From Candidatus Gastranaerophilales bacterium (GTDB taxonomy: Bacteria; Cyanobacteriota; Vampirovibrionia; Gastranaerophilales; Gastranaerophilaceae), in the NCBI GenBank assembly GCA_944325025.1, contig CALUYN010000012.1, forward strand, positions 1-54,510: 54,510 nt of DNA, given 5' to 3'. Each line of letters starts with the position of its first letter. The first letter of the stretch is position 1. The notes beneath the pieces were generated by a model. It was not told the DNA's origin. It saw only the letters and a program-made list of their open reading frames with translations, and ran no database searches. The translations under genes and the position numbers were made by a program. Of this stretch, positions 18,957-39,214 are shown piece after piece.

Positions 18957-19021
18957 ATTATGTTATTAGTTCCTTACCACCCACTTGAAATTTGTATAAA
19001 CATAAGTTATAATATAGAAAA

Positions 19022-19058
19022 GGGCGGGACAAGTTACCGCTTGCCCCTTTAAAAGCCC
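19022..19058 (-). terminator. Terminator-like double stem of peptide element copy 1
   Basis: On the minus strand an inner stem, GGGGCAAG / CTTGTCCC, with a 6-nt loop is enclosed by an outer GGGC/GCCC stem (19055-19058 with 19022-19025), then TTTTC. It is conserved in copy 2 (38981-39021). Confidence 0.65.
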
Positions 19059-19130
19059 TCAAAGTAGTTTAAGTGCTAGTATTATCAGTAAAATGATTAC
19101 TAGCGCTTTTTCAGTTACACTGAAATCCAC
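19059..19130 (-). CDS. 23-residue hydrophobic peptide (element copy 1), candidate type I toxin
   Basis: A GTG start with GGAGG 9 nt upstream (19140-19144, minus strand) opens a 23-codon frame. The peptide begins MDFSVTEKAL and continues with about 12 almost purely Val/Ile/Leu/Ala residues, then a Lys and two Leu: a one-span membrane peptide with an acidic N-terminus. The paralogue at 39025-39093 differs only by conservative changes (V5I, I12L, A19V) and at the very end. The size, hydrophobicity and structured mRNA recall Ibs, Fst or AapA-type type I toxins. No function is proven, and no antitoxin RNA can be assigned from sequence alone. Confidence 0.65.
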   Translation of the reverse strand: MDFSVTEKALVIILLIILALKLL

Positions 19131-19139
19131 TTTTTACCA

Positions 19140-19215
19140 CCTCCTTTCCTCTACTGGTTTGACAAATTTGTAGTTTGTGCCGCAGAGGTATGGATACGAT
19201 AAAAAAGGGCTTACC
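19140..19215 (-). ncRNA. Structured 5' leader of peptide element copy 1
   Basis: The leader begins with AGGGTAAGCCCT-type sequence (19206-19217), followed by a hairpin pairing 19182-19188 with 19148-19154. The segment AAGCCCT (rc of 19206-19212) is complementary to AGGGCTT at the stop codon (rc of 19053-19059), allowing 5'-3' closure of the mRNA. Pairing is kept in copy 2, with at least one compensatory change (C-G to U-A). A -10-like TATGAT lies just upstream. Confidence 0.55.
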
Positions 19216-19280
19216 CTCAATCATATATTAACAGTAAATGCAAAAATTAAATCATTTATATAGTGGAAATATTATTAAAT

Positions 19281-38873: not shown

Positions 38874-38980
38874 AATATTCTCTCCTTTTTTACTACAATT
38901 AACATGTACATTATATGAAGAAAATATTTTATTGCAATGAGAGATACTTGAAATTTATAAAAACATGATTTATAATAAAG

Positions 38981-39021
38981 AAAAGGGCGGGACAAGTTGC
39001 AGCTTGCCCCATTAAAAGCCC
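38981..39021 (-). terminator. Terminator-like double stem of peptide element copy 2
   Basis: Inner stem GGGGCAAG / CTTGTCCC (39003-39010 with 38989-38996), outer GGGC/GCCC, then TTTTC. Same as copy 1. Confidence 0.65.
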
Positions 39022-39024
39022 CTG

Positions 39025-39093
39025 TTAGTGTTTGAGCACTAGTATTATCAGTAAGATAAGCACTAGTGCTTTTTCAGTTATACTGAAATCCAC
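39025..39093 (-). CDS. 22-residue hydrophobic peptide (element copy 2), candidate type I toxin
   Basis: A GTG start with GGGAGG 7 nt upstream (39101-39106) opens 22 codons. The peptide begins MDFSITEKAL, then has an almost unbroken Val/Leu/Ile run, and ends LKH. Versus copy 1, the differences in the shared part are V5I, I12L and A19V, with several silent third-position changes, as expected for selection on the peptide. The coding region folds into a hairpin (AGCACTAGT / ACTAGTGCT) that is also present in copy 1. Single membrane span predicted. Confidence 0.68.
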   Translation of the reverse strand: MDFSITEKALVLILLIILVLKH

Positions 39094-39100
39094 TCTATCA

Positions 39101-39180
39101 CCTCCCTTCTTCTATCGGTTTTACAAATTTGAAGTTTGCGTCGTAGAAGTATGGATATGATATTTAGGGCTTGCCCTCGG
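39101..39180 (-). ncRNA. Structured 5' leader of peptide element copy 2
   Basis: Hairpin pairing 39144-39149 with 39109-39114. An AGGGCAAGCCCT sequence (39166-39177) includes AAGCCCT, which can pair with GGGGCTT after the stop codon (rc of 39016-39022). The GGGC of that site is also the outer terminator strand, so the two pairings exclude each other. Confidence 0.55.
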
Positions 39181-39185
39181 TTATC

Positions 39186-39214
39186 ATTTTATATTTTGTT
39201 AAATAAAAAGTCAA
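39186..39214 (-). promoter_or_regulatory. Promoter of peptide element copy 2
   Basis: Near-consensus sigma-70 type: -35 TTGACT (39209-39214), 17-nt spacer, -10 TAAAAT (39186-39191). The start is predicted near 39179, giving an RNA of about 195 nt. Confidence 0.75.

Follow-up and report, generated by a model that had tools for sequence, protein, structure and literature searches.

The window, by which we mean the whole stretch of 54,510 nucleotides analysed here (Candidatus Gastranaerophilales bacterium, contig CALUYN010000012.1), contains two copies of a small element, copy B at 39214-38980 and copy A at about 19218-19017, both on the minus strand. A blastn alignment of the two copies showed 170 identities over 208 columns (82%), in agreement with an earlier note on this DNA, made from its letters alone, according to which the same element recurs 20 kb away. 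Three more copies are located on other contigs, and the five copies of the genome encode five different peptides. Copy A has the same layout as copy B (Table 1): a sense gene with a short hydrophobic ORF and, beyond the sense terminator and on the opposite strand, a second gene with its own near-consensus promoter, which the earlier note had missed.

The sense promoter was found where it had been placed before, and the three substitutions given for the shared part of the two peptides, V5I, I12L and A19V, are correct (MDFSITEKALVLILLIILVLKH versus MDFSVTEKALVIILLIILALKLL). The reported change from G-C to A-U in the coding hairpin is real; a neighbouring pair, absent from the note, is a C·A mismatch in the sense RNA of copy A and a G·U pair in the antisense. 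The change between U-A and C-G also exists, but by eye its position fits the second pair of the 5'-UTR stem (39149-39109) and not the 5' hairpin to which it had been assigned. The 5' hairpin of copy A is directly followed by a T-run and scores as terminator-like, a possible point of early termination.

Table 1. Positions, in the window, of the features of copies B and A
Feature	Copy	Position	Strand	Remark
Sense promoter TTGACT-N17-TAAAAT	B	39186-39214	-	Matches 10/12
5' end hairpin GAGGGCAAGCCC	B	39167-39178	-	Contains AAGCCC (39172-39167), the 5' side of the end-to-end pairing
AUCAUAUCC, predicted local anti-Shine-Dalgarno	B	39153-39161	-	From the fold; own versus swapped z -2.2
5'-UTR stem-loop just 5' of the ribosome-binding site	B	39109-39149	-	Alignment and strand test
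Shine-Dalgarno GGGAGG	B	39101-39106	-	
ORF, GTG start, 22 aa, MDFSITEKALVLILLIILVLKH (candidate toxin)	B	39025-39093	-	Hydrophobic; presumably one membrane helix
Small hairpin UUUCAGU-AUA-ACUGAAA at the start of the ORF	B	39072-39088	-	
GGGGCUUUU box	B	39014-39022	-	Forms the 3' side of the end-to-end pairing; also outer strand of the sense terminator
Stem-loop and tail of the sense terminator	B	38980-39010	-	
Convergent antisense promoter TTGAAA-N17-TATAAT	B	38948-38976	+	
Predicted antisense RNA (putative antitoxin), about 95 nt	B	38983-39076, ends approximate	+	Complementary to the 3' half of the mRNA
Predicted antisense terminator, hairpin and T-run inside the ORF	B	39035-39075	+	The coding hairpin of the earlier note
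5' hairpin GAGGGTAAGCCC	A	19207-19218	-	
ORF, GTG start, 23 aa, MDFSVTEKALVIILLIILALKLL	A	19059-19130	-	
GGGCUUUU box and sense terminator	A	19026-19058	-	
Antisense promoter TTGAAA-N17-TATAAT	A	18985-19013	+	
Predicted antisense terminator inside the ORF	A	19071-19112	+	

Occurrence of the element in Gastranaerophilales

A DNA search gave matches in 27 of 59 relatives. The covariance model R1, built from 30 copies and with E-values that are rough, was applied to a sample of 384 genomes of the order and detected at least one match in 165 of them, distributed over 35 of 52 genera. In a phylum sample that includes the order, 73 of 292 genomes match; among the matches listed all genomes belong to the same order. 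The count of copies per genome that the earlier note had proposed ranged from 0 to 10 matches across genomes, and zero matches were found in some near-complete genomes of the genus, which indicates that the element is dispensable. The note had also recognised that its copies might be recent duplicates with random differences, and the presence of matches in so many of the sampled genera speaks against their being merely that.

The alignment A1 comprises 30 of 33 copies (L012, L016 and L029 were left out). One search round included 67 of 91 loci, the rest being mostly repeats of copies already included; outside it were L012 (near-identical to L010), L049 (a distinct copy), L062 (the same as L133) and L031, which matches over 26 bp. 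The 80 stretches studied were chosen from the listed hits, and the 38 genomes examined for copy number were chosen because of their hits. The aligned hits number 175, of which 170 have the 5' end, and the subsets used below (168 for promoters, 165 for end pairing, 152 for folds and 157/166 for ORFs) result from filters of their own for uniqueness, length and a recognisable ribosome-binding site. As the copies are related, the counts overstate the number of independent events.

Among the Rfam 15 covariance models none reached the gathering score in the window, and seven loci gave three Rfam matches at chance level (E 0.5-0.6), all far below the gathering score. None of six peptides matched Pfam and none of three matched PADLOC or PHROGs, profile tests that are limited by the shortness of the peptides. 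NCBIfam gave no match above cut-off for six peptides, one of which had a TatA match of 15.2 bits against a cut-off of 90. The family is unannotated and matched none of the RNA and protein families searched.

The predicted antisense gene and the strand under selection

The site TTGAAA-N16-18-TATAAT, with at least 10 of 12 bases, is located 3' of the sense terminator in 75 of 76 copies, and the sole exception is a marginal hit (L024:1221-1397). When antisense promoters were scored against TTGACA/TATAAT within 60 bases, with control windows taken from the same loci, at least 10/12 matches were found in 92.3% of 168 unique copies versus 2.2% of 1403 control windows, and at least 11/12 in 70.8% versus 1.0%. 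By the same score the sense promoter reaches at least 10/12 in 33.9% and at least 11/12 in 13.7% of the 168 copies, and at least 9/12 in 59.5% versus 13.7% of the control windows. The antisense -10 box ends 1-5 nt past the aligned element in 145 of the 168.

Transcription from the antisense promoter would pass over the sense terminator and into the ORF, as far as the coding hairpin and then TTTTT, and read on this strand the hairpin with its T5 looks like the terminator of the antisense RNA. At least four T occur among the 8 nt 3' of the antisense stem in 150 of 157 copies, an uncontrolled count to be read with care because the Glu-Lys codons encoded there, in an AT-rich genome, favour a T-run anyway (the lysine codons of 16 genes of the window are AAA 621 times and AAG 86 times). 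The predicted RNA of about 95 nt folds at -33.3 kcal/mol versus -20.6 (sd 3.1) for mononucleotide shuffles. By prediction it extends over 38983-39076 (+) and the mRNA over 39178-38980, so that it would overlap the 3' part of the toxin mRNA. A promoter and a terminator for an antisense RNA gene on the opposite strand, as expected of a type I system, are thus both predicted.

A G·U pair in one RNA corresponds to an A·C mismatch in its complement, so imperfect pairs reveal which RNA is under selection. In the 175 aligned hits, duplicates included, the numbers of G·U, A·C and other mismatches, read in sense, were 14/38/18 for the coding hairpin, 46/7/13 for the 5' hairpin, 51/9/74 (plus 209 gaps) for the UTR inner stem, 36/17/21 for the SD-tail helix and 94/8/20 for the sense terminator; the alignment model was fitted to the sense structure, a bias that runs against the coding-hairpin result. 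Minimum energies favour antisense for the coding hairpin in 103 of 150 unique regions, against 46 that favour sense, and for the sense terminator they favour sense in 102 of 143, against 40 that favour antisense. The arms of the outer coding stem correspond to codons 8-11 and 17-20, and a codon-register count over 140 unique regions gave 1075 Watson-Crick pairs, 57 A·C, 27 G·U and 101 others for this stem (40 A·C, 26 G·U and 88 others in 81 unique arm combinations). The inner coding stem, with 18 A·C, 24 G·U and 144 others, has no such bias, and the antisense bias is therefore limited to the outer stem. The earlier note had proposed selection on both peptide and RNA structure; this holds in view of the pN/pS ratio and of the covariation reported below, but the outer coding stem is selected mainly on the antisense strand.

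The codons of the candidate toxin that form this stem are coupled. We counted regions with A or E at codon 9 and L at codon 10, omitting a few with L at residue 19. When the third base of codon 9, a synonymous position, is A, residue 19 is V in 51 unique regions and A or T in 3; when it is G, the numbers are 0 and 68. In unique arms the corresponding ratios are 19:3 (A) and 0:41 (G), and the substitution A19V between copies A and B is an instance of this coupling. At codon 10, CTA accounts for 112 of 137 listed leucine codons; across 16 genes of the window it is the rarest leucine codon, used for 16 of 655 leucines. The shape of the RNA thus appears to set in part the amino acids usable by the peptide, two genes overlapping tightly. 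We give an even chance to the further idea that the antitoxin RNA terminator sets toxin residues in this way and that, through the exchange of ORF and terminator blocks among copies at fixed sites of the chromosome, every genome retains distinct toxin/antisense types that possibly do not cross-react.

Folding of the mRNA, peptide and genomic setting

The boxes near the 5' and 3' ends of the mRNA covary across the family, for example as AUGCCC/GGGCAU, AAACCC/GGGUUU and UAUACCC/GGGUAU. The duplex formed by the own boxes of a copy has a mean energy of -10.86 kcal/mol versus -9.40 for swapped boxes (sd 0.12, n=165; z -12.3), and in 88 non-consensus copies -9.97 versus -7.87 (sd 0.20; z -10.4). Controls on these 88 copies, with windows shifted by -60, -40, -20 and +20 and with a reversed box, gave z values of -2.0 to 0.8. 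The pairing of 5' AAGCCC with 3' GGGC suggested in the earlier note is therefore supported by 165 unique box combinations, and the covariation, which the note had thought might fade as more copies were aligned, extends across the family. Column by column, in 78 unique box pairs, only two of the seven pairs covary more than shuffling would give, the observed value being reached in 0 and 3 of 2000 shuffles, and the remaining five pairs have too little variation or are misaligned. By the comparison of own with swapped partners, there is covariation in the outer terminator pairing (z -9.5) and less of it between the arms of the 5' hairpin (z -4.7), and it is weak for GAGGGC with the 3' tail (z -2.9) and for the anti-Shine-Dalgarno helix (z -2.2). 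At least three expected end-to-end pairs are present in 132 of 152 mRNA folds, and this, with the covariation of the boxes, leads us to conclude that the ends pair. Over 152 copies the sense RNA has a mean energy of -65.9 kcal/mol, and ten dinucleotide shuffles of each copy average -42.0.

The note had further suggested that end pairing switches the RNA between an inert and a translated form. In the thermodynamic model, freeing of the Shine-Dalgarno sequence by 3' or 5' trimming was not seen in 152 folds: its mean accessibility was 0.18 in the full-length and in both trimmed forms, and in the model a local upstream helix masks it whether the ends are paired or not. Because this helix masks the ribosome-binding site in every form folded, a simple switch of that kind is unsupported. 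A pairing of the Shine-Dalgarno sequence with the 3' tail, suggested by RNAalifold, was dropped (mean of 0.01 expected pairs, and 0 of 152 folds with at least three).

The ORF is in register with the ribosome-binding site in 157 of 166 copies, starting with GTG (70), ATG (59) or TTG (28). It encodes 140 unique peptides, 127 of them of 19-25 aa and 10, from distant members, of 35-40 aa. A hydrophobic stretch of 12 aa was found in all 140 (Kyte-Doolittle median 3.52, lowest 2.56), and the 18-codon core has a pN/pS of 0.35 in 524 pairs at 85% identity or more, pairs that are non-independent. A conserved small hydrophobic ORF with its own ribosome-binding site, which is expected of a type I toxin, is thus found. 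The hairpin at the start of the ORF, with a stem of at least 5, is present in 80 of 128 unique regions versus 27% in shuffles, with compensatory variants and with imperfect pairs that lean mildly towards sense (26 G·U, 14 A·C); it is absent in 24 of the 128, mostly (by eye) of the VINTEEL peptide type. Its variants alter residues 4 and 6 (S..T, A..S, C..T).

Flanks are common to copies at several chromosomal sites. The genes on either side of copy B, recognised by eye, we take to be tpiA and ribE. Over 323-1195 bp, the flanks of copy B agree at 77-92% with the flanks of other copies within the genus and with those of loci L056 and L091, which come from a second genus (g27). Judging from these sequences, the copy B locus is an old intergenic site common to several species. 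At this one orthologous site, represented by L007, L010, L013, L015, L019 and L001, blocks are exchanged: the UTRs of L007 and L013 are 100% identical but their ORFs, of different peptide types, are 67% identical, and L007 and L010 agree at 94% in the UTR and at 62% in the 3' end. A decayed copy occupies the tpiA-ribE site in L016 (1097-1271): by eye, the sense promoter and the 5' box are eroded, the start codon is gone and 24 nt are missing between two stem arms, with the antisense promoter intact. Loss of the toxin side with retention of the antisense promoter is as expected if the peptide is harmful. One genome carries a tandem array of four copies, 303-308 bp apart (L058:886-2009), and further tandem arrays occur in L146, L165, L200 and L201. 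Searches for phage, plasmid and viral-contig matches, by blastn with one copy or with one exact pattern, gave no match, and together with the old shared intergenic site this leaves no addiction role evident.

Interpretation and relation to known systems

We consider that the element is probably a type I toxin-antitoxin locus, with a probability of about 0.8, of a family for which we found no description. The best reading of the sequences is that this new family would join a hok- and aapA-like pairing of the two mRNA ends with a convergent antisense RNA like RatA. ORF conservation, both promoters, both terminators, end-to-end pairing and the selected strand of most hairpins are backed by sequence; from these we infer transcription, toxicity, neutralisation and an activating step. 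One strand would give an mRNA of about 200 nt for a hydrophobic, presumably membrane-spanning peptide, mostly of 19-25 aa (up to 40). The other would give an antisense RNA of about 95 nt that starts at a promoter just past the mRNA 3' end, falls entirely inside the extent of the mRNA and ends at a terminator that the peptide codons form. In the full-length mRNA 5' AAGCCC would pair with 3' GGGCUU, joining the ends, and the copy that was folded adds a pairing of GAGGGC with GCCCUU; with its ends paired and its Shine-Dalgarno sequence masked by the upstream helix, the mRNA would be stable and poorly translated. The antisense RNA would bind the 3' half of this mRNA by base pairing, and a double-strand RNase would probably cut the duplex. 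If the antisense RNA were lost or outrun, the mRNA, perhaps after processing, would be translated and the peptide would disturb the membrane.

The same RNA logic could control a small membrane protein that is regulated by antisense RNA but is no toxin, for instance a modulator of a membrane complex. The conservation of the peptide is compatible with this, and a housekeeping role would suit the fixed intergenic position of copy B in several species and a second genus; we nevertheless hold it to be unlikely, given a number of matches per genome that varies from 0 to 10 and is none in some near-complete genomes, the swapping of peptide types at one site, the tandem arrays and the decayed copy that still has its antisense promoter. 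A structured regulatory RNA made in sense only, with hairpins and a short ORF that form an inert/translated switch and with no antisense partner, would account for a sense fold far more stable than shuffles, for the covarying ends and for the UTR stem and sense terminator being selected in sense. It would leave unexplained a convergent promoter conserved in nearly all copies and an outer coding stem selected in antisense with a T-run next to it on that strand, and is very improbable in our view. Hardly any weight falls on a small non-autonomous mobile repeat, or on recent duplicates in random drift: several dispersed copies and tandem arrays are what such a repeat would produce, but covariation and coding constraint contradict it, and a mobile-repeat origin was set aside because of the synteny of the copy B flanks across the genus and a second genus and the lack of any match in the phage, plasmid and viral-contig searches.

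As a type I toxin-antitoxin locus the element resembles several described systems, a likeness that in the case of aapA/IsoA and hok/Sok is drawn from published descriptions. The aapA/IsoA system of Helicobacter pylori, as presented in passages of Masachis et al. 2019 (PMC6733600), likewise has a small peptide, several chromosomal copies, a cis-overlapping antisense RNA and a highly stable mRNA with a 5'-3' long-distance interaction. In the full-length aapA mRNA this interaction masks the Shine-Dalgarno sequence and 3' truncation frees it (passages of PMC6733600), whereas here the masking is local in all the forms folded; the antisense RNA of our family, unlike IsoA, is predicted to start past the mRNA 3' end and to cover the 3' half. 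The hok/Sok system, also treated in these passages (PMC6733600), has a metastable 5' hairpin that guides the mRNA to an inert fold, 3' processing and pairing of both ends. The control proposed for our element is similar, and the element differs in having no Rfam or Pfam match and an antisense RNA on the 3' side. Thus, of the traits of hok and aapA, the 5'-3' long-distance pairing is found here, and freeing of the Shine-Dalgarno sequence on 3' trimming is not seen in the folding model. The end-to-end mRNA pairing looks like an independent case beside these two.

The toxins of txpA/RatA, bsrG/SR4 and the convergent Clostridioides difficile modules are longer than the peptide described here, and no Pfam or NCBIfam match above cut-off links our peptides to them. 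These modules share with our element a convergent, overlapping antisense RNA with long complementarity (according to parts of PMC6563280), and, as with RatA, the antisense RNA is predicted to overlap the 3' part of the toxin mRNA. Degradation is suggested there as the mechanism, by RNase III for txpA-RatA (same parts of PMC6563280); unlike our family, many modules of this type sit in prophages or the skin element.

Among the mostly open-access papers listed by our searches we came upon no description of a type I system for Melainabacteria, Gastranaerophilales or Vampirovibrionia; one listed paper (PMC4914512) mentions Melainabacteria as well as toxin-antitoxin. Melainabacteria are usually placed in the phylum Cyanobacteria. 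The nearest report in the phylum is msoT1/msoA1 of Microcystis aeruginosa, presented by its authors as the first candidate for a type I system in the phylum Cyanobacteria, with relatives reported from cyanobacteria (PMC12390103, partial text); its toxin, unlike the peptide here, has 63 aa and two predicted membrane helices, and in the main text the words Melainabacteria and Vampirovibrio are absent. The same text states that reports of type I systems come from few phyla and that a bias of the search methods is thought to be one reason (PMC12390103). Our results add a widespread unannotated family in Gastranaerophilales, gut bacteria that have been little studied, found via RNA structure and not via protein similarity, and offer more than 100 natural variants in which the mutual constraint of toxin mRNA folding, antisense termination and peptide sequence can be studied. 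The thousands of candidate microbiome RNAs reported in the sections covered of PMC8040213 may include this motif, unnamed.
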